Shown in pieces: positions 3,104-41,122 of a DNA stretch of 64,000 nt. Position 1 is the stretch's first letter, and the number at the start of each line of letters is the position of its first letter. This DNA is from Acanthamoeba castellanii str. Neff. Lineage: Eukaryota > Discosea > Longamoebia > Acanthamoebidae. The position numbers and the translations under genes are program-made. The notes under the pieces were generated by a model. The model made no database searches. It saw only the letters and a list, made by a program, of their open reading frames with translations, and was not told the origin of the DNA. The DNA lies in NCBI RefSeq assembly GCF_000313135.1, contig NW_004457654.1, forward strand, positions 689,896 through 753,895, in the 5' to 3' direction.

Positions 3104-5087
3104 CTACACGCTGGAGCTGCTGCCGCCGAGTTCCTTGTGGCGGTTGATGGCGGCGAACAGCTCCTCGGCCTCGTCTCTGCGAGATGCGCGCAGGAGGTAC
3201 AGGACCGGCTTGCCCTCCTCCACCGCCGACACCTGGAGGTGTCCCAACCACCACGCAACCACCCACACCACCAATCGTCATGGTCACACTCTTCTTCATT
3301 CGCACCACCACCATCGCCATCGCCATCGACATCATCACCATCCGTGGAAGAGAGACGAACCTGTACGCCTTTCTCCTGCACCCTCTTGGTGATGGTGTGC
3401 GGGAACAGGGCGGTGTTGAGGATCAGACGCAGCGCTCCCTCGGCGCGCATGACTGCCATTTCGGCCACGAGTGGGTCAATGGGTGGGTGGTGAGTTGGCG
3501 GTGCATTGGGTGCCTGGAGATGGTGGGGCGGGGCGGGGGGTACCGAGTCTGGCGTAGGAGTGGTCCTTGGCGACGTTGAGGTGGAGCTGGCCGGAGCCCC
3601 TCTCCTTCCAGGCCTGGCTCTCCGGCTCCAGCTTGAGCAGCTTGGCCCGCACCTGCACATATGTGTAAGGACCACCATCCACCATCCATCCACCGTCAAC
3701 ACAGGTCGCCGTACCGAGTGAACGCGCTCCTCGTTCTCCTCGCCGGTCACCACTTCGACTGTTCCAGTAGACGACCACCCGCGGAGTAGAGCGTCGTTAG
3801 GCGAGGAAGAAGGAGAAAGACGCGCGTGTAGAGAAAGAGAAACAGAAGAGGAGGAGGAGGAGAGGCCGACCCTTTTCGGCCACAGACGTAGACGAGCTCT
3901 CAGCGCCCTGCAACAAACAAACAAAAGTAAAGACTGTGAGAGGAGAAAGGGAAGAAGTAGAATAAATAATTATAAACAAATAAATAGAAAAATATTTAAA
4001 CTAAACTAAACTAAATAAATAAATGCGTAGCGAAGTGAGAAGAAGTGACTGTGGTGGTACCGAGGAGAAGAGGAGGGAAGACGACGAAGAGCTGAGGCTG
4101 AAGGCAAAGTCGGAGGAGGTCGAGGGCGCGGAGGAGGAGAAGAGGGTGAAGCCCGTGGAGGTGAGCGAGGGCGTAGCAGCGGCGCTGCCGTCCTTGCTGC
4201 CTTCGCCGCCAAAGAGGGAGCCGAAGGGCGTCGGCGACGAGAAGTCGATGCTGAACGGGCCGGGCGTCGACCCCGCCGCGCCCAGGTTGAAGCTGAGGGG
4301 CGCCGCGCCCGCGTCGGCGGCGCCGGACGACACCGACGAGAAGGAGAGGGGACCGGCCGCGAGCGACGAGAAGCTCGAGAAGCCCTCGCCCGACCCCGTC
4401 GGCCCCAAGAAAGCCAGCTTGCCGCCGCCGCCGCTCTCTTCCGCCTTCTGTTCCTTCTTGTTCTTGCTCTCCTCCTCTTCCTTGTTCTCCTGCGACTCTG
4501 TCTCCTTCGTCTCCTCCTCCTCCTCCTCCTTGCGAGCACGCCTGCACACACGCGAAGATCACGAAGTCAGACAACACAACACGACACACGACACACGACA
4601 CACGACACACGACACACGACACACGGCACATGACACACTACGCACACAACACGACATGGCACACGACGTACTTGGCAGGTTGCTGCTCTCCCTCGTCGTC
4701 CTGCTCGTGACGTCACCAACAACAACGTGCCGGGGAGAAAAGAGAGAGCGTGAGACCAACGAGCGAGCGGGAAACAACAACAAGGAGGTGAAGAAGATGA
4801 AGATGAAGATGAAGAGGTAGGGAGCTGTACCGCGCCGTTTTCGGCTGACGCGTCGGCGGCGGGAGCGGCCACAGCGGACTCACCCTTGGGCTGCAGCTCC
4901 TCGGCCTTGAGGGCCTCGTCCTCGGCAGGTCGCTTGCGGGAGACGGGCGAATCGGCCGCAGTGGTAGTGATGTTTGATGCTGCCGTGCAATTACAATTCA
5001 CAAAATACGATTAAAATTGAGATTGGATCTCGAGTGTGTGAATAATTTTGAAAATGAAGAATCGCTATGGAAGGAGGAGAGACCCAT
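3104..5087 (-). CDS. Ran-binding domain nucleoporin-like protein (RanBP3/Nup50 type)
   Basis: Predicted Ran-GTP-binding nuclear transport factor. The C-terminal exons spell a RanBD1 domain: EENEERVHSVRAKLLKL, WKERGSGQLHLN, a conserved RAEGALRLILNTALFPH segment, and an end reading RRDEAEELFAAINRHKEL. The middle exon (about 4050-4530) is Ser/Phe-rich with scattered FG-like pieces (PFGSLFGG, GFSSF, GFTLF), as in Nup50 and Nup2. The first large exon carries SRKRPAEDEALKAEEL, a short basic patch that could be a nuclear localisation signal. Stop is TAG at 3104-3106. The start is unsure: the long exon has no ATG of its own, but an upstream ATGG at 5084-5087 spliced to about 4985 restores frame and begins MASNITTTAAD. 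That donor (GTCTCT) is weak. RanBD family is well supported; RanBP3 versus Nup50 is not resolved. Confidence 0.8.
4571..4630. repeat. (ACGACAC)n heptanucleotide microsatellite in an intron
   Basis: Tandem 7-bp units lie in an intron of the minus-strand Ran-binding gene. In the sense of that gene they read GTGTCGT. It is the 7-base member of the TC(GT)n intron repeat class. Confidence 0.85.
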
Positions 5088-5347: not shown

Positions 5348-8300
5348 ATGGGGGCGGAAGCAAGCGTGCCGATGGAGGTGAACGAGGCCGACGTGAGCTG
5401 GGTGGCGGCCCCTGGTGGCAAGTCAGGGGTGGGGGTGGTGCGGTGGCGCTCCAAAGTGCTCCACGCCTCGCCTCTCCTGCGCGCCCCTCACCCCGCCCGC
5501 GCGGCGCACCTCCTTCGCCAATGGAAGTACGGCACCCTGCTTGCCTTACTTGTAGCACTTTTTTTTATATTATTTATCAATATTTATTTCTAATAATAAT
5601 AATGGCTTTGCTACTTGATGTGCAACACAATAACAGGGCACATGAGGCCAAGCTGAAGAAGCACCCACACGTGCTAAAGATAGTGGGCGTGCTACGTGTG
5701 GCCAAGACCGATGTGTGGCACATCCTCACCGAACCCTACACCGTACGTACTACTCGCCACTTGCTACATTCTACTTGCTACTTGCTTTCTCGCTTCTTGT
5801 TGTTGTTGCTCGATGGTAACGAGGCCTTGTTGGCGTGGTTGCAGAAGGTGATGGAGCTGCCGCTCATGGAGGACCTGGCGGGAGGGAAGCGCGGGGTGGT
5901 GCCCCTGTACAGCCGACTCGAGATCGCCCACCAGGTGGCCCAAGTCGTGGCCCTCCTCCACCAATGCGACATCGTACACGGCGCCCTCACGCTCGACCAG
6001 GTCGTCATGGTACCGTCCACTTCCCTCTACACCTCTTTCATCATGACGGCCTCGACTATCCGATCGCCACCAACCACTAACCACTACGTTCTACGTTCTA
6101 CGTTTTACTGATGTATATTTATACATTTGCTTTGCGCTACTTATGTGCAGACGGACCGAGGGTTCAAGGTGAAGGGGATCGGGTGGAACTGGGTGCAGGA
6201 CGAGGAGGCGGACCCGCTCTACCTGCCGCCGGAGGCCATGGACCGGATGTCGAAGCAGGACCTGGGCCACACCAAGGAGGCTGACATCTTCGCCCTGGGC
6301 TACCTCCTGGGCGAACTCTACACCAACCGCTCGGTGCGCGACGTCTTCCTCAGCGAACCCCAGTTCAAGGACGCCAGCGGCAAGCCCGACAAGTACCCTC
6401 CATCATTCCACACATTCCACATTCCGCACTGTTCGGTGGAGGCCTAACGCCTTCCTGATGCGCCAATCAGGGCGTTGTGGAAGAAGCACGTGGTGCTGCA
6501 CAAGTTCAGTCCGGTGCAGGAGCACGATGTGAACAAACAGATGTCCAAGCTGCTCACGTCGTGCTGGAAGCGCGACACCGACAAGCGACCGTCGGCGCAG
6601 GAGGCGCTCGACATGCTCACCGAGGCCATCCTCGAGAAGGTCCTCCGTAACCGCTTCGCGCGCACCATCTGGCAGGCCGCCCTCGACAAGCAATACGAAG
6701 TACCTCCTCGCCCCTGTCGCGGGTGTCGTGTGCGTCGTGATGCGTGTCGTGCGTGTCGTGCGTGTCGTGCGTGTCATGCGTTTCGTGTTCGTGCGTGTGT
6801 CCGTTGATAACAACGTGGTCCATGTGTGCAGTTCAACAGGTCGGAGGCGAATCCCTTCGAGGTGAAGTGGCAACACTTTGCGTGGGCGTTCTACGTGAAG
6901 CATATGGGCCTCAAGATGCCCAAGCCCAAGAACATCCCACCCAAACGCTACCACCTGCGCTTCACCGAAATCCTCGGCCTGCTCTTCATCCACGAACTCC
7001 TAACTCGTACGCATTCCTAACGCGCCAAGGCTTGTTGCTATACAACAGACGCTGACACGATACACGACACGACACGAACGACACGCACACGCACACGCAA
7101 AACAGGCGACGAGGACGATGAGAGCAAGCGGCTGAGCACGCTGCTGTTGTCCGGAAGCGGGAGCGGCATTGGTGGTTCGGCGGTGCGGGACAAGAAGAAA
7201 GAGAAAAAGAAGAAGAAGAAATCCGACAACGATCTCCTCAGCGCCAAGGGCATCAACGTGCAGGCCGCCTCGCGCGGTGAACTCCGTGGCATCGTCCCGT
7301 ACGCTCGACCGCGCACGCACACGCACCTCCGCGCACGCGCACGCGCTAACAGCTGAGTGTGGTGTTTTGAACGTCATGGGACAGGTTGGATGATTTCTCA
7401 TCGTTCCTGCTGTGGTTTCCGCTGCTTGGCCCGGCAGGCGACACTACGCTCCTGAAGGACGTGGTGCACGTCATGGGCCACAGGTGACCCTCCACCTTTC
7501 CTTTTCTTCTCTTCTCTTCTCTTGACACAACTCTCACTTCAATCAATCTCTTTGGCGCCGCCCAGATTCTTCCAAGCCATACGCACCAGCGGTGAAGCCG
7601 TGCGCCTTCTGAACAAGCAGCCCAAGGGTACGCCTTTCTTCGGCCATCGCCGTCGTCTACATGGATTACATTCCTGAGACCAACGGTGGCGTGGGCAACG
7701 ACATTGCAGGGACGTTCTTGATGCGGTTCAGCGGAGAGCCGGGGTCGTTCTCGATCTCGTACGTGCTCGACTTCGTATCCAAGCCCTCTCCGCGTACCGA
7801 GCTGCGTCACCTCCGCTTCTCGCGCCTTCCCGAGGGCCGCTTTGCCGTCGTCATCAACAATCGGTATGGCGACCACACACGACACACACGACACACACGA
7901 TACACACGACACACAACTAACGTTCTCGCGTGTGTGCGTGTGCGGTGGAATGCAAAGAACGGAGAGCTTTGCGTCGCTGGACGAGCTGCGGAAGGCGCTG
8001 GTGCGGCAGTCGGCGGTGTGTCTGGAGAAGGAGTACGTCAAGCAGTCGGGCAGCAGCCTCGACGAGCTGCGCGCCCTCTGGTCCATGGTCGAGGAGGACC
8101 CCGACGAGCTCGAGGACCTCGGCTATCGCCCCATCATCACCTACGCCACCGCCAAGACCTCCTCCGAGGTATGTTTCATATTTCCATTTCATTTCAGTTT
8201 CAGTTTCAGTTTCGTTTCAGTTTCGATTAATCAGGTTTTACTTTTCTTGTAGGCGGCGGTGGCGGCCGGGCTGAAGGAGGGCCAGGTGCGGGAGACGATC

Positions 8301-11300
8301 GAGGAGCTGGAGGGCATCCTCACGTACAAGGGCAAGGCGCGCCTTGTCTCCATCCGCCAGGGCGTGCTCATGATCTACTCCCTCAACGAAGACGGCAAGG
8401 TACCACCGCCTTTCATGTCATGACATATCATCACGTGCAACAGACCATGAAGGCTTTACAATGTAACGCTCTCTTGTTCGTTTCGGTCGAATCCAGGGGT
8501 CGGCCGAAGCGTTGGTGGGTCCGCTGAGCCAATCGGTGGGCGGCCTAGAACTGGTCAACGCGGCGGAGCTGCGGCTCTCCCTCAGGGCCAGCGGCGCGCT
8601 GGTGGAGTCTTCGTCTTCGTCAACACCGGCCGTCTCATCATCATCGTCATCATTGTCGGTGTCCTCTTCAAATTCCTCGGCGTCCGTGTCGCCCCGGCCG
8701 TCGACGTCGGGCATCCGGTCGAGCAGCAACGAGGCCCTCCTCTCCAAGATTCGCACCGGCCGCCACCACCCCCACAAGGTGGTCGTGCTGGACGGTGCCG
8801 CGGTGACCGAACTCAAGGGCGAGATGTCGTTCCGCCTCGAGTGTAACGGGTGGGTCGGCGTGCTCAGCTGCGACAGCGTCCCTGCCACAGCCAAGGTACC
8901 AACATCACTGCACACGACACACACACGACACGCACCATCCCACACGCACACACTAGAAGGAATCTAAAGCGTGCGGGCGCTGTGTAGTGGATTACGTGCA
9001 TCTCGCACTGGTCGTTGCAGGGCAAGCGGAACAGGTATTCGTCGTTCCGCCCGCCGCACGCGTCCATCCCGGCCCAGTGGTACGTCGACGGCGAGGACAC
9101 GTACGAGGCCATCGCCGACGCCATCGAGTCGGCGCGCAACTGCATCTTCGTGGCCGACTGGTTCCTCATCATCGAGACCTACCTCCGCCGCAAGCACCCA
9201 CCCAGCATCCACAACCGCTTCGACAAGATGATCCTCAAGAAGGCCCAGGAGGTTCGCATCGCATTTTATTTACCTGTCGTGTGTGTCGTGTGTGCTAACA
9301 ATGTTGTTGGCAGGGAGTGCATATCTATGTGCTGCTCTATTTCGAGGTCAACCTGGCGCTGAAGCTCAACAGCCAGGCCACGGAGCGGAAGCTGGCCAAC
9401 CTCCACCCCAACATCCACATCATCCGCCACCCTCGCCTCCGACCCTTCTCCTGGTCCCACCACCAGAAAATCGGTATTTCCCCTTCCACAGTCGTTTCTG
9501 TTCTTGACCCACTTTGACCTACCAGCTTTGACTATGTTCCAATGGTTGACTTGACTTTGTGTGGACTTGACCACGGCCGTATGCAGTGGTGGTGGACTAC
9601 GACACGGCGTTCGTGGGCGGGCTGGACCTGTGCTTCGGGCGCTGGGATCGGCGCGACCACCCGGTGGCGGACCCGTGCCACCTGGCCACCCTGTGGCCCG
9701 GGCGGGACTACTACAACCCCGAGCTCGAGGGTCTGTCCAATCAGAACGTGGAGAACCCTTTCGTCGAAACCCTCGACAGGTACTACTACTCGCCTACTGC
9801 GCCACCCCCTCAGCCCTTTTGTGTGGTCGACAAGAAGAATCAGCCAGTTGCTGACGACAGCGGTGTCGACAGGAACAAGCAACCGCGTATGCCGTGGCAC
9901 GACATCCACATGCGGGTCGGAGGCGAGGCTGCGCGCGACGTCGCGCTAAACTTCATCCAACGTTGGAACCACCACAGGTCGGCTCTCCGCGCGCTCCGAA
10001 ACGGTCGTGAAATTCACGCCGTGCTAAACTTCGCGTGTGGCGTGTGCGTGTGCGGTGGTGCGTGTGCGTGTGCGTGTGCAGGGACAAGAAGAACGAAACG
10101 ATGCGTGCGCAGGTGCCCTACCTGCTGCCGTCCGTTTCGCCGCCGCAGACGCCCGCCGGGACGTGCGAGTGTCAGGTGGTGCGCTCCCTCTCCGATTGGT
10201 CCGGGTGCAACCGCACCGAAGACTCTATTGCCCAGGTATATATTTCTTCTACATATACATATATATAATATCACTTTCCACATGCTCTTTTGCTTGATAT
10301 ATATTATGTATACGAGACTAAACATCACTGTGTCGTAACGTATCGTGTGCGGCAGGCCTACTACGAGTTGATCGAGGGAGCACAATATTTTGTGTACATA
10401 GAAAACCAGTTCTTCATTTCCTCGACGGCGGGCTCCGCCGTGCAGAACCGCGTGGCCCAGGCCCTCGTCAACCGCATCATCCGCGCTCACAAAGAAAAAG
10501 GTACGTGCGCACACAACGCAACGCAACACGACATGACACGACACACGCCGCACGACACGACACGACACGACACACACTCATGGCATGATGGTGGCGGTGG
10601 TGGTGGTGTCACGTGTGTGCACACAGAGGTGTTCCGGGTGATCATCATCCTGCCCAACTTCCCCGAGGGGAGCTTCTTTGCGCCGGAGGTGCGGATGGTG
10701 ATGAAGTGGACCTACGAGACCATCTGCCGCGGCGACACGTCGCTCCTCGCCCAGCTCCAGCGCGCCGGCGTCAACATCCCCGAATACATCTCCTTCCACC
10801 AGCTCCGCTCCTGGGGCCACCTCGACCAGGTGCGTACCCTCCCGCCCAAGCTTGCGTCAGCATGACGTCAGCGTGTGTGCGTGACGTCACTCACTCACCA
10901 ACACACGATGCACACGACACACACGACGCACAGGGACCAGTGTCGAATCAGGTGTATGTGCATTGCAAGTGTATGATCGTGGATGATGTGTGGACGGTGA
11001 TTGGGTCGGCCAACATCAACGATCGGTCGATGCTGGGCGTGCGCGATTCGGAGGTGGCGATCATCACGCGCGACAAGGCGCCCGCCGACGGCAAGATGAA
11101 CGGCCGCAACGCGCGCGTCTCCTCCTTTGCCCAGTCGCTCCGCATCTCCCTCTGGCGCGAACACCTGGGCCTCCTCGGCGTACGACGGCTCTTCTCGCAC
11201 GCAAGTTTCCGCACACGCGCGCGCATGTCTGACGCGCCGCACACGACACACGCCGCACCGCACATGACACACACACTACGCAGAAGGAGGGTGGATCGGA

Positions 11301-11736
11301 GGACGCGCTGCTGCTGGACCCGATTCACGCGAACACGTTCCACGGGCTGTGGCGCAGGGTGTCGCAGAACAACACCACGATCCACTGCCAGGTGTTCGCC
11401 AACACGCCCTCCGACGAGTACAAGACGCTCAAGGACTACTCGCGCGCCCTCGAACGGCGAGAAGGTGCGCCCCCCCCCTCTCTATCTCCCAGCCCACATC
11501 GTGGCACTGACCACGCTCACCGACTATCGTGTCGTGCGGTGTGTGTCGTGTCGTGTTGTGTCTCGTCGTTGATGTGTCGTGCAGCCAACCCGATTTCAGC
11601 GCGGGAGGTCCAGGTGCTGGAGGGGCTCAAGGGCCAGCTGTTGGACCTGCCGCTCCTCTTCCTGAGCGAGGAGAACCTGGGTCCGTCGGCCAGCGACGTC
11701 GCCCTCAAAGTACTCGACTCGTCCGTCTTCACCTGA
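5348..11736 (+). CDS. Pseudokinase - SH2 - PH-like - phospholipase D fusion protein
   Basis: A protein of roughly 1,400 residues in over 20 exons. (1) 5348-6700 is kinase-like: [14 protein letters not shown], then [10 protein letters not shown] where HRDLKxxN is expected, KGIG in place of DFG, LPPEAMD as the APE region, and a C-lobe [18 protein letters not shown]. The catalytic Asp and the DFG Asp are missing, so it should be a pseudokinase; the HG motif recalls JAK JH2. (2) 6837-8168 is a helical linker plus an SH2 domain with [19 protein letters not shown], which keeps the phosphotyrosine-binding Arg. (3) About 8253-8895 is a weak PH-like segment. (4) 9021-11736 is phospholipase [15 protein letters not shown] joined to VVVDYD (first HKD), IENQFFISS, and HCKCMIVDD (second HKD). 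Both HKD motifs are intact, so hydrolysis of phosphatidylcholine to phosphatidic acid is likely. I found no stop or promoter-sized gap between parts; one gene is inferred, and transcript data are lacking. Confidence 0.82.
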
Positions 11737-11935: not shown

Positions 11936-13505
11936 TCAGCAGTCGCACGATGATGACGAGTCGCTCCGGTCCACCTGGAGCTCGATGGTGCCATCACCTT
12001 GTGTACTGCTCACCCCGGTCAGCAAATGCACAACCACATTACACGCGCACACACGACGTCATACGACGCTCACAGAGATGGTAGCGTACACGCTCTTGTC
12101 GCGGACCTGGTAGCGGTAGAGGGTGGCGGAGGCGAGTGCGTGGAAGGCCTCTTCGACGTTGGTGGCAGCGCTTGCACTGGTCTCGTAGTAGTAGATGCTC
12201 GCCCCGACCCGCTTCTCCGTCTTCCTGCACCACTCCTCCGCCTTCCTCCCCCCCCACGCCCCAAATCGAAGCGCGTCAGCCACCGGCGGCGTTTGAAGCG
12301 AGTTGTGTGCGCACGCGCGCACCATTTCTCGGGTGACTTCGCAGACGTGGTCCATGCCGCCCTCCTTGAGATCGATCTTGTTGCCCACCACGACCAGCGA
12401 CACCGGTTCGCCCTCGTCTTCCTCCTCGATCGTGTTGTTTCGTCCTGCGTGCATGGGCGAGTCAGCAAAAAGAAAGAAGAAAGAAGAAGAAAAAGAGAGA
12501 AGAAAGAAGAAAGAAGAAAGAAAGAGAAGAAAGAAGAAGAAGAGAGCTTGCCTTGGGCGCCCTGCTGGGGTAGCTTTCCGGTGGTGCGTAGGAAGTTGTC
12601 GAGCCACCCGCCCAGGCAGTCGAAGCTGTACTTGTTCGTCACGTCGAACACCTGTTGGCGCCCGCCCGGCAGTTAGCCTTTTTTTCAATTAATGCCAATA
12701 CATGTGCCCACGCACACAGCACACGCGACACGCACCACCGCACACAGGCACACGCAGGGGGTTGAATCTCTTCTGAAAAGAGTACCAGCATGCAGGCGTC
12801 GGCTCCTCGGTAGAACGCACTGCCCAGAGAACGGAACGTTTCCTGCGTCATGCATCGCCACCCGCGCCGCACAGTTCAGCCCACGCGCTGCCGCCGCCGC
12901 CGGAAACACGGACCCGAATGGCGACACACACGACACCCGCCGCACACGCCGCACGACACGCCATCAATGTGGGACACCCGCTCAGCGGCGTACCTGCCCA
13001 GCCGTGTCCCTGCGAAAACGAAGAAGAAAGAAGAGAAGAAAGAAGAGAGTGCAGTGTGAGAGAAATGATGCTATGCATAGCCTTCATAGACGGGTGGTTG
13101 TATCAAAAAGGGTGATGTGTGCGAGCGAACCAAATTTGGAGCAGGACGGCCCGGTCCTCCACGAAGAGGTCCTTCATGAGGAAGTCGGCCCCGATGGTGG
13201 TCTTGTAGTGGAGCGAGAACGACTTGTTGACGTACTGTAACACGCACACGCACATGATTTTAGTAAAAAAAAAAAAAAAAGAGGAAAAGAGAGAAAGAGA
13301 GAAAGAGAGAGAAGTGGGCTAGGTACCTGCTGCATGAGCGACGTCTTGCCCACCCTGCATCTCAGATGAAATGAAATTAGCACTTGCACTTCCCAATTGT
13401 TTCGCCAATTGTACGGAAAATCGTGGAAGAAAGAAGTGCGCACCCGCTGTTGCCGATGAGGACCACCTTGAGAACCGTTGCCTTTTGGGTGGGGGGCGTG
13501 GCCAT
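11936..13505 (-). CDS. Rab7-like small GTPase
   Basis: Predicted late-endosome/lysosome Rab. Start ATG at 13503-13505 gives [21 protein letters not shown]; the next exons give [37 protein letters not shown] and [15 protein letters not shown], then NKIDL and ETSAS. VNKxF, TIGADF and FYRGADxC favour the Rab7 branch. All G boxes are intact. The last small exon reads [16 protein letters not shown], ending in Cys-Asp-Cys, a CXC double-prenylation signal typical of Rabs; the splice from a GTACGC donor to it keeps frame. Six or seven short introns interrupt the gene. It is convergent with the PLD fusion gene, with about 200 bases between stops. Confidence 0.92.
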
Positions 13506-13895
13506 GGTGTGCACTTTTTAGATCTTGTGGTCTTCTCCTCTTCGCTTTCTTTGTCGTCCCGCCTGTGACGAAATGTTGGTATGCTGGGGCGCAAGAATTG
13601 TGAAAAGAAAAAGAGAAGAAATACACTTGGTTTGTGTTAGTCGGCCTGTCCTCTGCATCAATAGAACACATTAGCTAAGACCACCAGCAAACCAAGATTG
13701 AGCAATGTACCAAACTCAAGCTCTTTGGTTGTCAGAAAGGTTAAGGGCTGAAAATGGATGCAAGGACCAGCCAGACTCCTTAACACTGTGTCTGGAAAAA
13801 GGTGATAGTGGTACTTTTTAATGAAACTAAAAACAGGTGTACATGAGATAAAAACACTGCAGAATTTGAGTGTACACAGAGAAGAGAAGTTTTAT
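13506..13895. other. Intergenic junction between host gene and AT-rich insertion
   Basis: No gene seen. The stretch upstream of the Rab7-like start contains purine and pyrimidine runs; around 13650-13700 the sequence changes from GC-rich to AT-richer DNA. The left edge of the inserted block probably lies here. I could not see a terminal inverted repeat or target-site duplication by eye. Confidence 0.5.
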
Positions 13896-16490
13896 TTACA
13901 GGAGTCTAAATATTTCTTGAAGGGTGGGTGGGGGAACTCCAGTGTTGGCGTTAAAGTCAAAGCCACAAGCTAAAACAGACCCCATTGGAACAGTGCTTTC
14001 TGAGCCATGGTCAGTCCAGTGTCCATTAGTGAAGTTCCACCAGTGGACATGGAGCCTCTTACAGAGAACACTGATGATCTTGCATATCCAAAAGTCCTGA
14101 GTGTCTTCATCAGCATCAGCCCAGACAGCAACCCACTGACCAGGAGCAAAGTTGAAACATTGGACTTGGGGTGTAGTCCATGTGTGGACAACCTTGACCC
14201 TGGTTTGGAGACAGAACAATGGACCATCAAGGAGAGGATTAGTGATGGGGTGAGCTGTGAGTCCATCAAAAATCAAGTTATTGCAGGTGGGTTGGGAGCT
14301 TGAAACAAGAGCCTCATGTGCTTCAAAGATATCAGCCCACTCACTAAGCTCAGACTCAAGGAACAGTGGAGCATGGCAGTTGTCAGCCAACTCAGTAAGC
14401 ACTTCAGGTGGAAATTGCTGAGGAGGGATAGTGAAAGGTGCTCCTGATATGGTTTGTGTAAGTTGTGATATCTTTTGGTAGGGTGTGTGCAACTTAGTGA
14501 GGAGGAAGGGGAGCAAACCAGTTGGAATAGATGTGAGAAGCTGGTATGGCTCAGAGTAGGCTCCTTGGGTGTGGTAGGCTTTGTCCCAGATCACTGGTTT
14601 GCCTGAAGCATCATGGAAAAAATGGAAAACATGGGGGGTGGAGTGACCAGTCAGGCCATGCATGTGATTTCCAAGCCAGCTCTTCCAGTCCCAAACAGTT
14701 TCAAGGGTATGCAGGGAAGGAGCTGGGCTGGTGGATTGGTAAGCCTGCTCAAGAAAACCAGAAAGTTGACTGAAATTTGAAGATGAAGTTAGGAAGGTGA
14801 ACAAAAAGGGGCAATCATTAATGCTTACAGAAAAAACCAATGCGCATCAGGTAATGAGTCAACAAATAAAAAACCTGATGTGCATTGGGAAAACAATCAA
14901 CACAAAAAAAGAGTGATGACCATTACCTTGGGGTGTGAATGGAAGAGGTATGGAACTTTGTCTGAGCAGTGGAGAAGAGCTGGTCAATGTCTTCATGTGT
15001 ATGCCCAACCAACAGAAAGCTCAGGTAGACCTCTTGGAACATATCAAGGCTGACCAGGAGACTGAGGAAGGCAAGCATGAAGACATTCTTGTTCTCAGCA
15101 GCACAATTGTCAGCCTGCAGGTAGAGGATGGAAGGGTGAGTGTTGGAGGCGGTGTTAGTCAAAAGGCAAGTTCAGATGTGGTGAAAGAGTGTGGAGATGA
15201 CAAGGTTAGCATCTTTTGGCCAAAAGGGCTGAGGGTGTAGAAAGAGGTGTTTGCCATGGCTGTGGTCAATGAGACCACCAAGAACCATGGTGAACTGGTT
15301 GCCAAAGTGCATCCAGGCCTTTGGCACAGGAGTGTGGGTGGGGAGAGGGAGTGGGTTGGAGTAGTCAATGATCAGGCTCATGTAAAGACTTGGTCAACTT
15401 GTTGCTTGGTGGCATCAGTCCTTGTAACTGAGGCGTTCTGCAGAAGAAAGAGCAAGGTGGTGAGTCCATGCACTTGCAAACTGTGCTGCCTCAAGAGGGC
15501 TTTTGGCTCTCAAGCGTTGCTGTGCAAAGTCAATGCAAGCAGAGCACTTGCCAAGGTGTGAGTTCTTAGGCAACTTCACATAGGCAAAGTGGGAAGCAAT
15601 GTGTTTGAGCATAGCAGAATAGGTGAGCACAGGAACAGTAGAGGGATGAGCATTGGCACACATAGAGTGCACTTCTCACCAAGTCAAAGAAATAGGTAAG
15701 TGGATGGTGGCATCAGGAAGGCGATCTCCAATAACATCAAAGAAAGTGGTTAGCCATAAGTGGGTATTGGAGGTGGCATTTGAGGGGTGTTGCTGTCCAG
15801 TGGTGTTGTGTATTGGGACACGCCCTCCAGAAATGAATATCTGTTTAGCAGAATGCCACTTCTTCCTGCTGAAACCATGCACCTTGTAGAGCAGCAATGT
15901 GAGGTGGGATAACAAATGTAAGGCCACAATAAAAAGGGTTGTCACCTTTTGGAAAGCATTCAAACACACTGGAGAACCATTGAGTCACAACTTGAAGTGG
16001 CACTCAGGTAGTGTTGAGACACAGCTGGCTGACATGATGTTGATGATGAAGGTGGTGCAATTGTGTTCATTGAGATCTGCAAAGGGTTGTGTGATGTTGA
16101 GAATGTCAGCAAAAGAGAAGTTATCAAGGCATTTCTTGCGACAACAGAATGATGCAAGAACAGTATTGATGTGGTCATTGCTGACAAGCAGGCAACACTT
16201 TTTGGGGATTCACTCTTCAGCAGTTTGGAGAACTCTCTTCCTTGGAGTATGAGCTGTGGCTCATAAGGACTGGCCAAAGATTGGGGATAGTAGGGTAGAG
16301 GCGAGGACCTCAGTGTTGGTGGGGAGAGAGTGGCTCATTGTGGTGGAGAATGACTGTATGACACTGGTGAGGTATTTCAACATCTGGTGTGATATCTCTG
16401 ATTCCCAACAGCCACATAACAGATAGATGTGGTTCTTCTGGATTGGCGAACATTTGTGTTTCTTGGAACTCCAGACCAATGAGCTCACAA
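13896..16490 (-). CDS. DUF7869-type protein of a putative mobile element
   Basis: Exons on the minus strand, in protein order, include CCRKKCLDNFSFADIL (about 16140), GFSRKKWHSAKQIF, HLGKCSACIDFAQQRL, MSLIIDYSNP, ILYLQADNCAAENKN, LLVGHTHEDIDQLFS, and a long last exon (13896-about 14780) with FNFAPGQWVAVWADAD and FWICKIISVLCKRLHVHWWN. The 'LQxDNCxxENKN ... VGHTHEDIDQxFS' block is the hallmark of the DUF7869 family, found as scattered multicopy ORFs in many eukaryotes. Conserved acidic residues (IID, QADN, HEDID) would fit an RNase-H-like transposase core, but that is inference. Function is unknown. Base composition is unlike the neighbours. Introns hold copies of a TGATGTGCATTGG repeat. The 5' end is uncertain, and at least one stop in the spliced path near 15970 suggests either a missed intron or decay. 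Stop is TAA at 13896-13898. Confidence 0.6.
14839..14900. repeat. Dispersed CCTGATGYGCATTGG repeat, copy cluster 1
   Basis: Two copies in opposite orientation (CCAATGCGCATCAGG and CCTGATGTGCATTGGG) are separated by a GTCAACAAATAAAAAA spacer, inside a putative intron of the DUF7869-type gene. Confidence 0.85.
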
Positions 16491-16515
16491 CAGTGGAGTT
16501 GAGGAAAATACTGGA

Positions 16516-16700
16516 AAATTAAAAAACCCAATGCGCATCAGGTTTTTTATTTGTTGACTCTTTTCCCCAATGCGCATTAGGAAACAGGACAACAAATTAA
16601 AACCAATGCACATCAGGAAAATAGTCAACAAATAAAAAACCTGATGTGCATTGGGTAGCAAGTCAACAAATAAAAAACCTGATGCACATCAGGAAGATCT
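16516..16700. repeat. Dispersed CCTGATGYGCATTGG repeat, copy cluster 2
   Basis: Five or six copies in mixed orientation, spaced about 38-40 bases and joined by AATAAAAAA/TTTTTTATTTGTTGACT linkers, lie in the divergent gap between the minus-strand DUF7869-type gene and the plus-strand acidic ORF. Confidence 0.88.
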
Positions 16701-17638
16701 CAAAGCTCTCCAGACCACATGAAATTTCGCCACCTGTTTCCAGTCCCTCCAATTAGAATTTAATGCAGACAGATTTTTTGTAGACCTTCACTACCTCTCA
16801 AATGTCGAAAAACCTGTTTTGATCATTTTGTTGTACCACCCACATTCAACACACACTTCCTTACAATGTCTTCTCACCAAGCTGCCTCAGTCCTTCCCAA
16901 CTTCTCAGCCCTGTCAGCCACCAAAGCTTCTAGCAAGCTCCCATAATGCCCTGGTGAAGGTCCACCAGCAACCTGGCACCAAGGTTATCACCAAGGTGTA
17001 CATCAACAGGTTGCTGCAGGCATGGGGCCAAGACACTGGCTGCACAAAGCAGCAGTCTCTCAAACTGCTAATGCAGTGTATGCCAATGACAGCAGAGGAG
17101 GGAGTGAAAGAGCCAATGGATGTGGAAGAGGAAGAGGAGGAGGAGCAGATGGAGGATAAGGAGGAAGAGCAGGAGAAGGAGCTGGAGGAGGAGGAGGAGA
17201 AGCATGGGGAGGAGCAAGTGGAGGAGGAGAAGGGGGTGGAGCTGGAGGAGGAGATAGTGGAGGAGGAGAAAAAAGGAGGAGAAGGGAGAGGAAGTGCTGG
17301 AGGAGGAGTGGGAGGAGGAGTTGGAGGCAGAGAAGGAGCTAGAGGAGGAGGAGAAGCTGGAGGAGGAGGAGCACCAAGCACTGCCAAGGAAGTGCAAGCT
17401 CATAGAGAAAGAGCACAAGGAGAGGAAATGTGCATGCCCAGTGGTGATTGACCTGGACAAGGAGATGGAGGCAGAGGAGATCATGACCAAGCCTCACAAG
17501 CAGCTGGTGGTGTGCCAGTACTCTGAAGGCAACACTGAAGAGCAATGCAAGGAGGCCACCAGACTACTTGCCCTGCCTGACCTGGAGCTTGGTATGTACA
17601 CTTTGTGTGTGTTTACTGTTCACCACACTGACAAGTTC

Positions 17639-17825
17639 CAAACTGATGTGCATTGGTTTTTTTATTTGTGGACTCTTTTCCCAATGTGCATTGGGTTTTT
17701 TTATTTGTTGACTCTTTTCCTGATGTGCATTGGGTTTTTATTTGTTGACTCTTTTCCCTGATGTGCATTGGGTTTTCTATTTGTTGACTTGTTTCCTGAT
17801 GTGCATTGGGTTTTCTATTTGACCT
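17639..17825. repeat. Dispersed CCTGATGYGCATTGG repeat, tandem cluster 3
   Basis: About five direct units of roughly 37-39 bases (TGATGTGCATTGG, a T-run, ATTTGTTGACTCTTTTCC) lie in tandem in one intron of the plus-strand ORF, between a GTATGT donor near 17593 and an ATGCAG acceptor near 17870. Confidence 0.9.
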
Positions 17826-18355
17826 GTGAAAATCATCTTTTGTGTTGCTGACCTCAACCTTACTATGCAGAAACGAAAATTCATACACTCCTGAATTTCC
17901 AATCACTTCAGTCCAACCCCAACATCATCAGCACCAGCCTTCAGGTGACCTGCAATGACCAAGCAATGCGCCAGCAGAAGGAGCAGCTTGATTGCATAGA
18001 CCCTTCAACTTTGCACCATACCTGGGTTCAACCCACATCATGCCACATTGATGTTTGGAACTGCACCATCTTTGGTACAACTCCTCTTTTTGTTCTGCTG
18101 CTGTGTTGATGCTTTCACTTGCTAACCACCTGCACTGCCATCAGAATGGCATTGCCCAGTGACAGTTCCAGGAATTTGTCACTTGCTGCAGTCTGTTGTG
18201 GATGGAGGGTGTCTCACAACCAAGCCCTTCATTGTTAGATTTCTCAATGAAGATGAGCGCCTTGACTGAAACAATGTTGATGAGTTTGGTATTACTTCCC
18301 ACACCACTTTGTTTTAGCTGCACCCATGGCTATTCAGTTTTTAGGCTATTTGCAA

Positions 18356-18385
18356 TTCCTGATGTGCATTGGTTTTTTTGGGTAC
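18356..18385. repeat. Dispersed repeat, single copy
   Basis: One CCTGATGTGCATTGG followed by a T-run, inside an intron of the plus-strand ORF of the insertion. Confidence 0.7.
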
Positions 18386-19861
18386 TAACTTTTAACCTTC
18401 CAGAGGCTGTTGATTGTAACCACAGAGTTGTGGTCTGGAACCTCATTGAGCACTGGCAGTGGGAGAATGTCTACAAAGTTCTGCCAGCAGCTGCAGGGAT
18501 GGCACTCAGCTGGATCATCCTTGACTGCATCTCTGGCTTTGAGAACTACATCAACTTGGCAGGCTTAGTTGTCCTGAATGCTTTTGAGACAGCCCTGAAC
18601 TACTACACCCTTGGCACAGATCATGCGTGGCAAAAAAACTGTTACTGACTACAATGCTCTTGCTGAGCACCTGGTATGTCCACCACCTTCATATTCCAAA
18701 CCATTACTCATCACCCCACACCTCACAGAAAACGCTCAAAGGTCATGCTGCACCAAAGCCCACCACTCTACAGAAGTACTCAACTACCTTAAGGGCCCTG
18801 TTCAATGCTCCAGGAGTGGTGGAGTATGTTATTTCTACTCTAACTTGTCATGTTTGTTTTGAGTCCTCACTAACTGTTCCCCTTTTCCAGTCTTATCAAG
18901 GAACTCAATTGCCTTGTTCCAGAGGGTCAGGTGTTCATCTCCCTTGACAACCTCAACTCTGGTGCCTTCAGGGAATTGAGTGCCAATGACATGATTGCTG
19001 TGCTTTGCCATTATAAGTGCTATCAACACCAAGCCCCTTCCAAGAGTATGTCCTTTCTTTTTAGTAATTGTTATTCACCCAACAAGTCTAACTACTTCCC
19101 TCTTGCCTGAGAACTTCTGGTTGCTAATCACCAACCACTGGAGCATGATCAAAAGGCAGATGGAGGCCTTTTGTCAGGCCATTCATGCAGCTGCTGTGAA
19201 GATCCTGAGGAGCTTTGCCACATCTGGGACTGGATCTGTGTTGCAGAATACATTGCACTGTGTGGTAAAAACATCAAGATCAAGCAGCCTCACAGCATCA
19301 CCTCCAAAGTTGTCAACACATTCCACAAGCACCCATTCCAGTCAAAACTTCTCAGTGATGAGGCAGTGGAGACCTCTCCTCGCCAGTTACAAAGGGAGAT
19401 CACACATGCCACCGCAGCCTCTCAAGCAGAGGAGGCCTCCCTTGCCTCAACATCCATAAGCAAACAGCACTGGCGTCTCTCTGCGTTGGCCCAGGGGAAA
19501 ATGGTACAAATCAACTCCTTCCTGTTCCAATTCACACCCCATTACTTTCACTTACACCACTTTTATCTGACTTCAGCCCACAGTACCCACTGCCACTGGC
19601 ACCACTCCAACCACCCCAACCAGTATGTTTGCATTTTGCTGGTAAAGTTCCAAGCTCACCACATGCTTGTTCTTTACAGCTACCAAGAAACGTGGCAAGG
19701 GTAAGGCTGAAGAGGAAAAGTTGCCATCTACCATCAAGCACAAGGCAGAGCTTGCTCTCCAGAAAAAGTATCTCCCCCAATTCACTGAGCCACTCACCAA
19801 CCTTCTTGGCCAACCAACACAATTCCATGAATGGCTGGTGCATTTATCATCCTGCATTGTT

Positions 19862-20004
19862 TTCCTGATGCACATTGGTTTTTTATTTGTTGACACTTTT
19901 CCCAATGTGCATCAGGTTTTTATTTGTTGACTCTTTTCCCCAATGCACATTGGTTTTTCTAATTTCACTTATTTCCTGATGTCCACTGGTTTTTTTCTTC
20001 CACA
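19862..20004. repeat. Dispersed CCTGATGYGCATTGG repeat, cluster 4
   Basis: Four diverged units (TGATGCACATTGG, CAATGTGCATCAGG, CAATGCACATTGG, TGATGTCCACTGG) with T-run plus TTTGTTGACTC linkers form most of the last intron of the plus-strand ORF. Confidence 0.88.
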
Positions 20005-20809
20005 GGTGTCAATCTACCTGCACAACTTTACCATCCACAGTGTGGACATTCCTCTCAACATTGAGGACACAGCAACTCACCTATCAAAGTCTTACAGCGT
20101 CAGATTCTGCATCTCCTCATCTCCCTCCAACATCACCAATGCCATCACCTCACTCAAGTCACACTCCACCCTCCAGGTCTTCCACCTACTCCACTTCTAC
20201 TACAGCTCCCCAACTTACTCCAGCTCCATGCCTGCCTCCAAACCTCTCATCAGTGGCTTTGATGTTCTCATCTTCAGCCACAAGAGGGTTAACATGTCTG
20301 CCATCTGGCATCCTCTGGCCAGTGACACCATCCCTGAACCCTTCTGCTATCTGCACCACATCCCCATCCCAATGCGTGAGGTTGTCTGCTCTGCTCCTGC
20401 TTTCCTCACTGCTCAATCATCAGACCACACCCTGCTTCACATCAGCCTCTACAGCTTCCTCATCCAGAGCTTAGAGCTTCCCAATCCTTCTCCCCACCCC
20501 ATCACATCGCCCACCACTCCCTACCACATTCTCTATGAGGCAAATCCCACCTACTACCTCTCCTTCTGTGCTGCCCTTTACTCCAGCTTTGTCTGCCTCT
20601 CCTCTACCCCCATAGCAGAGGGCAACATCTCCTCTCTCACCAACTGGCTCCTCACCTTCCACTCTAAATTCCTGGAGGAGTCAGATCTCACAGCCATCAC
20701 TTCCTTCCTACAAGGCCTAACTTCACATCCTGCCCTTGCCCCTCTCACACCCAAGACCAGCTCCTCCTCCTCTTCCAGTCCACAGAAAGTGTGGAAGTCC
20801 ATTGGCTAA

Positions 20810-21535
20810 TGTTGCCCTCCACTCTTTTCTGTTCCTCATTTCAACAAAATACATTAGCCCTTTTTTACACTTATGCCTTGAAATTCTTCATTGCCCCCAT
20901 CTGCTTTTACCATGACCTACACCATTTTTCCCTGTTTTGCCACACTCTGTACATATTTTGCCAAAACCACTCACACACCATGTTCACAAAAGTACTGCTT
21001 TTGCTGCACATACACATATATCACTTGTACAGATTTTACTTTACAAAAGGTCCCACTGGCACCTTTTTCTGGACACAGTGTTCCTTAGAAGTGTTAAGTG
21101 GGAGAGTGGAGAAGGTTTTTATTCTCTTGTTTTTGGATCTTCAAGCACAATCAGGACTAAGGTCTACCAGGAGCACAAGGAGAAAAACTGAGAGAACTTG
21201 GATCAGGTCCTCATAATCTACACCCACAGCAAAGCACCAGATGGACCCCATCACCATTACCTGGACTACATTGGCAAGAAGAATATCAGCAGCAATATCA
21301 ACTGCATTGCAGGAGTCTGGCAGGATCTGATGACTCACAACTACTTCATCAGCATCAACAATCCAGATCTGGACTGATGGTGGCACATCTTCCAAGTCAG
21401 TTAACATGTGGAGCATCAGCCAGCTTCAACTTCACTTCCCCAACCACTTCTTCATCTCCTCACTCCTTTATCCATCACTGCCTCACCTCTTACATTGTTG
21501 TTGTTGGACCCACAGCGCAGTGCTCCCTATCCACT
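20810..21535. other. Non-coding or decayed right part of the insertion
   Basis: No intact gene. Fragments on the plus strand such as RTKVYQEHKEKN, VLIIYTHSKAPDGPHHHYLD and NINCIAGVWQDLMTHNYFISI look protein-like but are broken by TGA and TAA codons at short spacing, so this is probably old coding DNA. Composition matches the insertion up to about 21500 and then returns to the GC-rich host type. Confidence 0.4.
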
Positions 21536-21747
21536 CAAATTGCTGACCTGCTTCAAGTGTACGCCAACAAGGTCTCTCTACTCACCCTGGGGAATCATGA
21601 GGTGATCTGTGCGCATTCCACTCACTCTCGCCCGTCACCCACGCATGCAGTGTCCCAACAAGCGCGTCAACACCCGCCAGGGGTACCAGGTGCCCGCCGG
21701 TGGCGGAGCGCCCCACCCCTACAGCGTCGACTACATGGCCATGGAGT
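21536..21747 (+). pseudogene. Possible remnant of a purple-acid-phosphatase-like gene
   Basis: Two short exons joined over a 50-base intron (GTGATC donor at about 21600, ATGCAG acceptor at about 21650) read QIADLLQVYANKVSLLTLGNHE then RVNTRQGYQVPAGGG and PHPYSVDYMAME. 'GNHE ... YxVP ... YSVDY' resembles the core of purple acid phosphatases (PGNHE ... RYxMP ... WYSFDYG). Upstream metal-binding motifs and the downstream His motifs are absent, so at best it is a 5'- and 3'-truncated remnant at the edge of the insertion. GC content is host-like. The match is short and could be chance. Confidence 0.3.
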
Positions 21748-22227
21748 GAGTGGTGTGCCGTACTGAGCATCACAATGTTCTCTCTTTGTCACGTCAGGAT
21801 CGCCACAATAAGCAGCGCCCCTTTGTTAAATATACTCTCCTTCTCCTTTGTCGAGGGGAGCAAGAAGGTTTCCGCGTCGGCGATTCCCGCTCATCATTGT
21901 ACGCCTATTGGGCGATTCGGCTGTCGTGACTTCTTTCTCTTTCTCTCCTGGCAAAAGAAAAGACGCACGAGCGTCGATCGAGGCGGGTGGCGGTGTACCC
22001 TCTTCATCTGACAGACTCACGAAAGGAGGCCGCACATCATCACACTATTATTTCTGTATTTTTATCTCATAATTAACAGCAATTATTTGTCCGCATAAAT
22101 AACTGGCGGAAAGAGAGAAGGAGCACCAGCTCACGCGAGGAAGGAGAACCCGAGAGCGGAAGGAGAAAAGAGCGAAGCAAGAGAGAGAGATATAGAAATA
22201 TAGAGATATAATTCTATACATAAATCT
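21748..22227. other. Intergenic region upstream of the TBC gene
   Basis: No gene recognised. It holds a GC-rich stretch with short open frames (21780-22010), then an AT-rich and purine-rich tract (22050-22225, GAGAGAGATATAGAAATATAG type) directly before the ATG of the TBC protein, probably its promoter and 5' UTR. Confidence 0.4.
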
Positions 22228-38725: not shown

Positions 38726-41122
38726 ATGGAGGGCTACGCCGAACATGAGGATATCGATGACGAACGCGAGATGGCTGCCTCGGTGCGAAGGAGCAGTCGA
38801 AAGCGCAAGAGGCCCGCCCTCAACCCCAGCAGCTCCAGCCACACGGAAGAAGAGCCAGTGGTTGACGATACGAGAGCCTTCAATCCGACTCGCCCCATCC
38901 CAACGCCACTTGCACGTTCCGAACCACAAGTTCAGATTCAGGTGGAAGAAGAAGAACGACAGCGAGACCCGGGCACCACGGCCTCGCTGCAGATCGAAGA
39001 TGACACGAGCATGAGCATGGGCGTTGAGTCGCACGGCAACGAGCAGGTGGAAGAGAAGAACAAGACCGCCCAAGAAGGAGAGGGCGACGAGGAAAAGAAC
39101 AACACGTGCGGCATCTGCTTCGAGGAGGTCAAGGAGCGGGGCGTGCTGGACTCGTGTCGCCACGCCTTCTGCTTCGACTGCATCCACCGCTGGTCCAAGG
39201 TGGCCAACTCGTGCCCGATGTGCAAGGCCGCCTTCTACACCATCACCCGGCAGCACGACGTAGCAGGAGGCGAGCTGCAGCAAGAAGGAGCCGCACCGCA
39301 AGAAGAAGAAGAAGTAGAGCAGGACAACCCGCCCAGCAAGAGGAGACGAGGGCGCAAGGTCACCAGCCAGAAGAAGAAGAAGCCCAAGAAGAAGCCCGAC
39401 GTGGTACGCGTACGGCCCAAGAAGCAGCAGTACCGCTACTCGCGCCGCGAGATCGAGGACATCGCCCGCGCCGCCGAGGCTGCCGAGGCCAGCCAGCCAC
39501 ACCACCACCACCACCACCCTGGCCACCGCTACGCGAGCGCGTCCCTCCTCAACCGCATGCTGGGCCACCCCGACGCAGACGCCCTTCCTGCTGCGTCCAT
39601 GGGCTTCTTCTTCGGCCTCGCAGGCCCTGCCGACAACGATGAAGATGAAGACGAGGACTTGGACGAGGACGAGATGGAAGGCCTCCGCTCTGGCGAAGAA
39701 GAAGAAGGCGAAGGCGAAGACCACGACTTCCTCCTCTTCGCTTCCGGAAGGGAAGACCGATCGCGCCAGCTTCTCGCATCGACCACCAGCCCCGCCCCCA
39801 CGACGGCCCGTCGACGCACCCCCTACCAGCCTCCGCGACAGCGACAGCCGACTGCGGCGCCCCACCACTGGGAGTCCCAGGCAGGCGCCGACCGCCAGCT
39901 CGCCGGAGCGCGCGACCGTATACGCAGCGTGCTCGAGTCCCGCGCCCGTATGCGCGTCGACGGCGGTCGCCTGGGTCCCTTCGCGCGCTACGGTGGCCGC
40001 GCGCCGTGGATGGCGCCGGCTTCGGCTTCGCTCCACCACCCGCCGCCCACCGTGGGCGGAGGTGCGGCGCTGCACCACGCCGCAGACTTTCACCGGCAGC
40101 AGCACCAGCATGCGATGGCCCAGGGGCTCGAGAGCCTGAAGGGCATGTTCGGGGACTCGATGGACGCCGAGGTCCTGGAGGCCGTGCTCCAGCAGGTGGG
40201 CGGCAGCGTGGAGCGCGCTGTCGACGCGCTCTTTGCCATGCAGGGCGGCTCCGGCGACAGCCCCGTGGCCTCGTCGGAGGACTCGTCGACGTCGACATCG
40301 ACGTCGTCTGCCACCGCAGCTGCATTTGTCGACCTGACGACAGACTCTTCCGCCGCTGCCGCTGCGACGCCCGCCGCGTCGTCTCCGCTGCTCTTCGAGT
40401 GCTTGCCTCCTACACATTCAACGGGCGCCACGGCCAGGCCCTCACGCGCGCCGGCTCCGGCCTCGGCCTGGAGCTCGCCATCGTCGCCGCCCGAAACCTC
40501 CATGTCGGCTCCCATCATTTTAGTACCCGACGAGGACGTAGAGTTCATCGCCGAGCGTCAGGTCAAGCCTCGGCGCCGCCACCTCGGCCTCCAGCGCACC
40601 GCCACCGCCAGCAGCTCACCCGCCTCGGCCGACGGTGCCGACTACAACCGACCCCGCCCGAGCCCCTCGTCCGCCTCCTCGGCCACTTCTTCGCCGTCGC
40701 CATCGCCATCTCCGTCTTCCCCTCCTTCTCTCGGCTCAGTTCGCCGATTCCCTAAGTTCCCCGGGCGCCGGTTCTGCCCACCGAGGCCGCTCAGCTCCAC
40801 CACCTTCTCCGCTTCATCATCGCCATCATCCTCTTCGGCGCCTCTTCTTCCCCTTGCGCTGCCGCCGCTGGTGCCGGACGACGTGGATCGCCGGCCCGAC
40901 GTGGGCCACGAGGAGGGCATGACTTTGGCCTGGCGCGACTTTGCCGAGGTACAGCGCGAGACCAAGAAGGAGCACAAGCGCAAGCTGCTTGAGGAGCGCG
41001 ATCAGCAATTGTCGTCCCGCCCGCTGGCCAGCGCTTCGGCGTCCTCGTCGCCTCCACCACCTTCTTCCTCTTCCGGCGGCCGCCCACCACTTCCTTCCAC
41101 CGGCCTCACCAGACGGCGATGA
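38726..41122 (+). CDS. RING-CUE domain E3 ubiquitin ligase, intronless
   Basis: A single uninterrupted frame of 798 residues from ATG at 38726. A C3HC4 RING finger at about residues 127-168 reads CGICFEEVKERGVLD, SCRHAFCFDC and NSCPMC, so E2 binding is expected. A CUE/UBA-like ubiquitin-binding segment at about residues 467-507 contains LKGMFGDSMDAEVLEAVLQQ and VERAVDALFAM. Basic runs (SSRKRKRP near the start; KKKKPKKKPD about residues 218-230) suggest nuclear location. The remainder is low-complexity Ser/Pro/His/acidic text. A charged helix near the end (about residues 730-770) has TKKEHKRKLLEERDQQL. Lack of introns contrasts with nearly every neighbour and may mean a retro-copied origin, but no poly-A tail is evident. 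It is divergent from NUP155. RING and CUE calls are firm; the substrate is unknown. Confidence 0.85.
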   Translation: MEGYAEHEDIDDEREMAASVRRSSRKRKRPALNPSSSSHTEEEPVVDDTRAFNPTRPIPTPLARSEPQVQIQVEEEERQRDPGTTASLQIEDDTSMSMGVESHGNEQVEEKNKTAQEGEGDEEKNNTCGICFEEVKERGVLDSCRHAFCFDCIHRWSKVANSCPMCKAAFYTITRQHDVAGGELQQEGAAPQEEEEVEQDNPPSKRRRGRKVTSQKKKKPKKKPDVVRVRPKKQQYRYSRREIEDIARAAEAAEASQPHHHHHHPGHRYASASLLNRMLGHPDADALPAASMGFFFGLAGPADNDEDEDEDLDEDEMEGLRSGEEEEGEGEDHDFLLFASGREDRSRQLLASTTSPAPTTARRRTPYQPPRQRQPTAAPHHWESQAGADRQLAGARDRIRSVLESRARMRVDGGRLGPFARYGGRAPWMAPASASLHHPPPTVGGGAALHHAADFHRQQHQHAMAQGLESLKGMFGDSMDAEVLEAVLQQVGGSVERAVDALFAMQGGSGDSPVASSEDSSTSTSTSSATAAAFVDLTTDSSAAAAATPAASSPLLFECLPPTHSTGATARPSRAPAPASAWSSPSSPPETSMSAPIILVPDEDVEFIAERQVKPRRRHLGLQRTATASSSPASADGADYNRPRPSPSSASSATSSPSPSPSPSSPPSLGSVRRFPKFPGRRFCPPRPLSSTTFSASSSPSSSSAPLLPLALPPLVPDDVDRRPDVGHEEGMTLAWRDFAEVQRETKKEHKRKLLEERDQQLSSRPLASASASSSPPPPSSSSGGRPPLPSTGLTRRR

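Follow-up and report, generated by a model that had tools for sequence, protein, structure and literature searches.

Direct links between SH2 domains and lipid enzymes are known from PLC-gamma, SHIP and PI3K, and the SH2 domains of PLC-gamma both recruit and restrain the lipase. Kinase and SH2 domains occur together in the JAKs, which have the layout FERM-SH2-JH2-JH1, and in the SHKs of Dictyostelium, in which the order is kinase, linker, SH2. Portions of a Dictyostelium study (PMC1420674) class Shk1 to Shk5 as TKL kinases with an SH2 domain and report that plasma-membrane localization of Shk1 requires its SH2. The genome paper of Acanthamoeba castellanii (PMC4053784) counts 48 SH2 proteins, along with 22 tyrosine kinases and 12 phosphatases. 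A fusion of SH2 with phospholipase D (PLD) is not described in the portions covered of the literature found (PMC2837644, PMC6563779, PMC7542358), nor is it mentioned in those parts of the Physarum genome and Balamuthia annotation papers that were searched; the protein analyzed here may be drawn in the supplement to the A. castellanii genome paper, where the SH2 proteins of this species are treated.

Here, we analyzed a 64,000-nt stretch of DNA from A. castellanii str. Neff (contig NW_004457654.1; hereafter the window), in which an original prediction, made from the letters alone, had proposed a pseudokinase, an SH2 domain, a PH-like part and a PLD in one gene. The order pseudokinase, linker, SH2, PH, PLD in one polypeptide is near certain, and the interpretation given with that prediction is, overall, partly supported.

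Gene structure and transcript

The gene occupies 5348..11736 of the window on the (+) strand and comprises 23 exons and 22 introns, all GT-AG and consistent in phase, with a product of 1387 aa. Its ATG at 5348 and the end of its stop codon at 11736 are exactly those of the original prediction, which had also described "one open gene": this holds for the transcript, which is single, but not for the DNA, which is not one open frame and needs 22 introns. In our first hand model of the gene, retention of an intron brings in an in-frame stop for 14 of the 22 introns.

5348-5526, 5637-5742, 5845-6009, 6151-6392, 6471-6699, 6832-7006, (+) strand: exons 1 to 6
7106-7298, 7385-7483, 7566-7627, 7710-7863, 7958-8168, 8253-8399, (+) strand: exons 7 to 12
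8497-8895, 8988-9251, 9314-9473, 9587-9779, 9873-9977, 10082-10235, (+) strand: exons 13 to 18
10356-10500, 10627-10829, 10934-11179, 11284-11464, 11585-11736, (+) strand: exons 19 to 23
8988..9020, (+) strand: 33-base stretch that the transcript retains by using the acceptor at 8987 and not the one at 9020

A protein database search with the window protein (7984 candidates scored; best 120 of 147 matches listed) returned P0001, a protein of 1390 aa on a 4294-base contig, which covers 100% of the query at 99% identity. Since this contig is intron-free and has 4294 bases, compared with 6.4 kb for the genomic gene, it represents a spliced transcript. Automatic spliced alignment of P0001 against the window gave the same 22 introns as the hand model except for one acceptor. 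Bases 8988-9020 encode the Trp-x6-Trp end of the PH domain, in which both Trp residues are invariant among five aligned family members, and because these bases are present in P0001 and encode that invariant pair, the acceptor used in the transcript is the one at 8987. Once exon 14 begins at 8988, the spliced window protein has no internal stop and its residues 1 to 1383 are all identical to those of P0001; the differing last residues of P0001 may reflect sequencing-adapter read-through.

All domains of the window gene are transcribed as one. The original prediction had named the region of 7 to 9 kb as the place where a split into separate genes would show, and a single transcript contig spans it with no split there. 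It is extremely improbable that two neighboring genes, or a fusion created by mis-assembly, have been taken for one gene: the sole points in favor of this are that the reading crosses 22 introns and that the P0001 contig is itself an assembly, and against it stand the one intron-free contig that carries every domain, identical over 1383 residues, the recurrence of the order at two further loci in the genome and in Balamuthia, and another protein, P0002, that shares the order from the kinase C-lobe onward. We rejected the two-gene reading on the strength of the intron-free contig. An additional internal promoter may give rise to a further, shorter transcript.

Several introns of the window gene contain degenerate short repeats (ACACGAC/CACACACGA or the complement), whose strand form differs between introns.

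6715-6798, 7874-7915, 10521-10577, 11527-11582: examples of the intron repeats
4579-4656: repeat also present upstream of the gene

Elsewhere in the window, an ORF with an NAD_binding_4 match (63 bits) lies upstream of the PLD gene at 1698-2945 on the (+) strand, and small GTPase-like pieces (NKIDL, ETSA, read by eye) adjoin its 3′ end at 12059-13671 on the (−) strand. The stretch 14001-22000 is low in GC (0.46-0.50 versus 0.53-0.60 around it) and is perhaps a decayed mobile element; a DUF7869 match (34.5 bits, cut-off 26) lies at 13899-14846 on the (−) strand. An ORF of 798 aa at 38726-41122 on the (+) strand shows, by eye, a RING-finger-like cysteine pattern.

Domain order and the PLD region

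The domains and motifs of the window protein are as follows.

5396..6678, (+) strand: predicted pseudokinase, residues ~17-300 (Pfam match absent before residue 65)
5977-5988, (+) strand: HGAL, in place of HRD, in the predicted pseudokinase
6172-6183, (+) strand: KGIG, in the DFG region of the predicted pseudokinase
6832..7481, (+) strand: linker, residues 308-462
7482..7988, (+) strand: SH2 domain, residues 463-545 (Pfam)
7715-7732, (+) strand: FLMRFS with Arg489, in the SH2 domain
7805-7819, (+) strand: RHLRF with His517, in the SH2 domain
8310..9041, (+) strand: putative PH domain, residues ~625-805, with a Ser-rich loop inserted in it; the acceptor at 8987 is required for its last helix
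9072..11712, (+) strand: predicted PLD1/2-type catalytic region, residues 816-1380
9452..9597, (+) strand: first HKD motif, WSHHQKIVVVD, residues 922-932, split by the intron 9474-9586
10952..10984, (+) strand: second HKD motif (11 residues), residues 1202-1212

Pfam scans of the spliced protein, a check that the original prediction had suggested, placed kinase, SH2 and PLD all above their cut-offs in one protein. Specifically, P0001 matched Pkinase over residues 65-278 (45.6 bits, cut-off 31.7), PK_Tyr_Ser-Thr (35.8 bits, cut-off 23.1), SH2 over residues 472-545 (28.9 bits, cut-off 21), PLDc in two stretches (50.5 bits, cut-off 21.9) and PLDc_2 (49.9 bits, cut-off 27). Both HKD motifs are intact and lie where they had been predicted. 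The catalytic sequence matched human PLD1 with an E-value of 2.6e-125, match lists from fold searches with the structural model were filled by PLD, and the protein has the eukaryotic PLD catalytic fold; it is predicted to be a PLD1/2-type phospholipase D. Human and other eukaryotic PLD1 and PLD2 are PX-PH-PLD proteins, whereas the window protein carries the pseudokinase, linker and SH2 domain in front, and no PX domain was found in Pfam scans of the whole protein.

Relatives in amoebae and the PLD tree

The same domain order exists in other amoeba proteins, as a search for orthologues proposed in the original prediction revealed. Pfam finds a kinase, an SH2 and a PLD in P0005, which is annotated as "Phospholipase, variant 2 [Balamuthia mandrillaris]". 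P0002, a transcriptome protein, has SH2, PLD and a kinase C-lobe (kinase match of 24.3 bits, below the cut-off of 31.7) and may be cut at its start. Database searches with P0001 residues 1-800 and with P0002 residues 160-680 (7992 candidates scored in each) gave back just the query, which seems to be an effect of the word filter, given that the whole window protein does retrieve P0002 and P0005. With P0002 as the query, PLD matches were found in the window's genome at five loci, namely C44 (the window), C93, C133, C201 and C124, and two of these hold further copies of the architecture besides the window gene.

C133, ~69.7-78.1 kb (L015, L016): kinase-like part, SH2, PH and PLD, in this order
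C201 (L018), (−) strand: kinase-like part, linker, SH2-like part, PH-like part and PLD

The SH2-like part of C201 reads GTFLLHF, with His (CAC) at the place of the Arg (~base 2135 of the reverse complement), and gave no Pfam match. C201 thus carries a natural Arg-less SH2-like domain, and the layout can be maintained in the absence of a canonical phosphotyrosine pocket, so that the architecture does not require phosphotyrosine binding. No SH2 was seen at C93 and C124 in spliced alignments of 9.9-kb stretches, the front halves of which are poorly modelled. As side observations, the C133 model has a long charged insert inside its PLD, and C250 of the same genome carries a further PLDc motif.

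In a tree of 45 PLD domains with a midpoint root, the five SH2-bearing PLDs fell on one side of a branch with a support of 85/92 (moderate, below the starred level) and 89% of 200 bootstraps. They split into the window protein with P0002 (100/99) versus Balamuthia with C133 and C201 (100/99), so that the C133 PLD is nearer the Balamuthia protein than the window gene. We infer from this tree that Acanthamoeba and Balamuthia probably diverged after the fusion and an initial duplication had taken place. Between the window protein and P0002, identity was 0.64 in the PLD, 0.50 in the SH2, 0.50 in the PH, 0.35 in the linker and 0.34 in the kinase C-lobe, i.e., the SH2 is better preserved than the kinase C-lobe.

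The kinase-like domain

HGAL for HRD and KGIG for DFG were found as the original prediction had placed them. The DFG Asp is absent from all five family members (GIG, ESG, NYA, EYG and NFG; two of the five are script-spliced models), whereas among the four members covering the catalytic loop three keep its Asp, as HGDL, and HGAL occurs only in the window copy. Lys36 of the window protein lies near the candidate ATP-binding Lys of Balamuthia in a gapped alignment. On its HGAL and KGIG residues the window domain is dead-looking and is predicted to be a pseudokinase. It is quite improbable that the domain is an active atypical enzyme and the protein a kinase-PLD with two activities: the retained HGDL Asp and the candidate ATP-binding Lys of Balamuthia would fit such an enzyme, but the DFG Asp is gone throughout the family and the window copy is also without the catalytic-loop Asp.

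Searched alone against solved sequences, the window kinase gave five listed matches, four of them to PTK6 and one to RET (best E-value, 9.5e-6). With a profile of the five family kinases, the best matches in one stretch were CTR1 (85.6 bits), the best B-Raf chain (81.8 bits), IRAK4 (75.9 bits) and PTK6 (74.8 bits); TYK2 stood at the top with 95.3 bits, a score summed over two domains (JH2, 36.6; JH1, 49.9). Judging by these scores, the family kinase resembles TKL or TK kinases and has no specific likeness to JH2. An SCY1-type pseudokinase, raised by eye from the motif ILTEP, was also considered.

The original prediction had pointed to the JAK layout and had taken HG in place of HRD as a sign of JH2. 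Neither comparison held: the SH2 of JAKs precedes the pseudokinase while the window SH2 follows it, and the HG motif is not diagnostic, given the HGDL of the other members. The first place of TYK2 on the solved-structure list and the second place of another two-stretch chain (90.8 bits) might appear to assign the pseudokinase to the JH2 type and the protein to JAK-like signalling, but both scores are sums, single-domain scores favor TKL kinases and then PTK6 over TYK2 JH2, FERM is absent and Pfam finds one kinase stretch. We consider this assignment highly implausible, and a JAK relationship was rejected on the profile scores for TYK2 JH2, CTR1 and B-Raf.

A closer parallel to the front half was found in the same genome, in which one exon of C143 holds a kinase end, a linker and an SH2. 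Its upstream frames, read by eye, contain GTGSFG, VAVKK and DFG, the motifs that an active kinase would have. The linker end of the window protein resembles the pre-SH2 linker of this SHK-like gene, and a window-family profile matched the linker end and SH2 of the C143 exon with an hhalign probability of 96.8% over 93 columns at 32% identity. Therefore, we infer that the front half is probably an SHK-like kinase-SH2 whose kinase lost activity and which was fused once to PH-PLD. Two results, the five-member profile and the linker-SH2 match, point to a TKL/SHK origin of the kinase; against a TKL origin, the window kinase alone matched only tyrosine kinases (PTK6 and RET) among solved sequences.

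The SH2 and PH domains

The SH2 call is based on Pfam; a failure of this domain to match, which the original prediction had named as grounds for rejection, did not occur, and the FLMRFS Arg was confirmed. The Arg is kept in four of the five family members in the alignment. Src SH2 has a second pocket Arg, alpha-A2, for which the window SH2 shows no evident counterpart. In the structural model, confidence is low over the SH2 (pLDDT of ~41-68 by block). Binding of phosphotyrosine by the window SH2 is predicted from its residues. Six-frame translation of the genome (38.4 Mb, 250 contigs) gave 40 SH2 matches. At E-values up to 0.001 the window gene was not among them, and the division of its SH2 between three exons is the probable reason.

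The PH call is based on sequence and on the order of strands and helices in the structural model, which fits a PH domain. No PH match was obtained in Pfam scans of the whole window protein, and the window PH alone, with the loop omitted, reached 13.5 bits (cut-off, 25.1). Among the family, one member exceeded the Pfam cut-off and all five gave PH matches at E-values up to 1. The region also gave 14 listed solved sequences at E-values up to 1 (best, 0.011), all of which we take to be proteins with a PH domain. The PH-like part that had been predicted between SH2 and PLD is borne out through the relatives, although it is weak in the window member alone, and a PH domain at this position is supported for the family.

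Possible control of the lipase by phosphotyrosine

We slightly favor a mechanism like that of PLC-gamma, in which phosphotyrosine would place or switch the production of phosphatidic acid. The window PLD would show little activity until a membrane protein is phosphorylated on tyrosine and so offers a docking site to the SH2 domain. Docking, together with phosphoinositide binding contributed by the PH domain, would keep the PLD at the membrane near its substrate, and might free the PLD active site or lift an inhibition imposed by the front half. Phosphatidic acid would be produced where tyrosine kinases act, and the pseudokinase would probably serve as a scaffold or internal brake and not as an enzyme.

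In the chief rival to control by phosphotyrosine, the SH2 would be retained for a structural role or for a contact that does not involve phosphotyrosine, such as packing on the linker or PLD, and control would be exerted only by phosphoinositides, small GTPases or expression. C201, which retains the domain order without the SH2 Arg, is consistent with such a role, as is a linker about as conserved as the SH2 between the window protein and Balamuthia (0.40 and 0.36, respectively). On the other side, the Arg is retained in all members but C201, and FLMRFSGE is identical in the window protein and P0002 despite the low identity of their kinase C-lobes. On balance, we regard a structural SH2 as unlikely.

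Returning to control by phosphotyrosine, a wider proposal, which we offer tentatively and would not call the probable one, is that amoebae have a directly phosphotyrosine-gated PLD family, an independent counterpart of PLC-gamma, which arose when an SHK-like kinase-SH2 with a dying kinase was joined to PH-PLD in a single ancient event. The dead kinase would serve as an allosteric gate, and some copies would have escaped phosphotyrosine control by losing the SH2 Arg. With such an architecture, tyrosine phosphorylation may feed directly into a lipid signal. If true, phosphatidic acid would join the SH2-linked lipid signals, in unicellular organisms that possess tyrosine kinases of their own. The paralogues, including one without the SH2 Arg, would form a natural set for the control of a lipase by a pseudokinase and an SH2 domain.

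Comparison with known systems

Close in the PLD tree are P0003, a RasGEF-GRAM-cNMP PLD of Planoprotostelium fungivorum, and the similar P0004. Like the window protein, they have a large regulatory front half; unlike it, they carry RasGEF, cNMP-binding and GRAM domains, with no SH2 or kinase listed. The JAKs share with the window protein the presence of an SH2 domain and a pseudokinase in one protein, but the order is reversed, and the window protein is without FERM and without a second kinase domain.

The kinase-linker-SH2 order is common to C143, the Dictyostelium SHKs and the window protein, and Shk1 to Shk5 belong to TKL, to whose single domains the window-family profile is nearest. However, C143 retains GTGSFG and DFG whereas the window kinase lost its catalytic residues, for which reason we do not file the window protein as an SHK, and the window protein has PH-PLD fused behind its SH2.

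Like PLC-gamma, the window protein is a phospholipase with a built-in SH2 and PH that would answer to tyrosine kinases. The likeness is an analogy of working only, with no PI-PLC catalytic domain model among the Pfam matches of the window protein: the catalytic family and the product are different, and the window protein has one SH2 domain plus a pseudokinase. SH2 and PLD are both well known, and the logic of their union was preceded by PLC-gamma.
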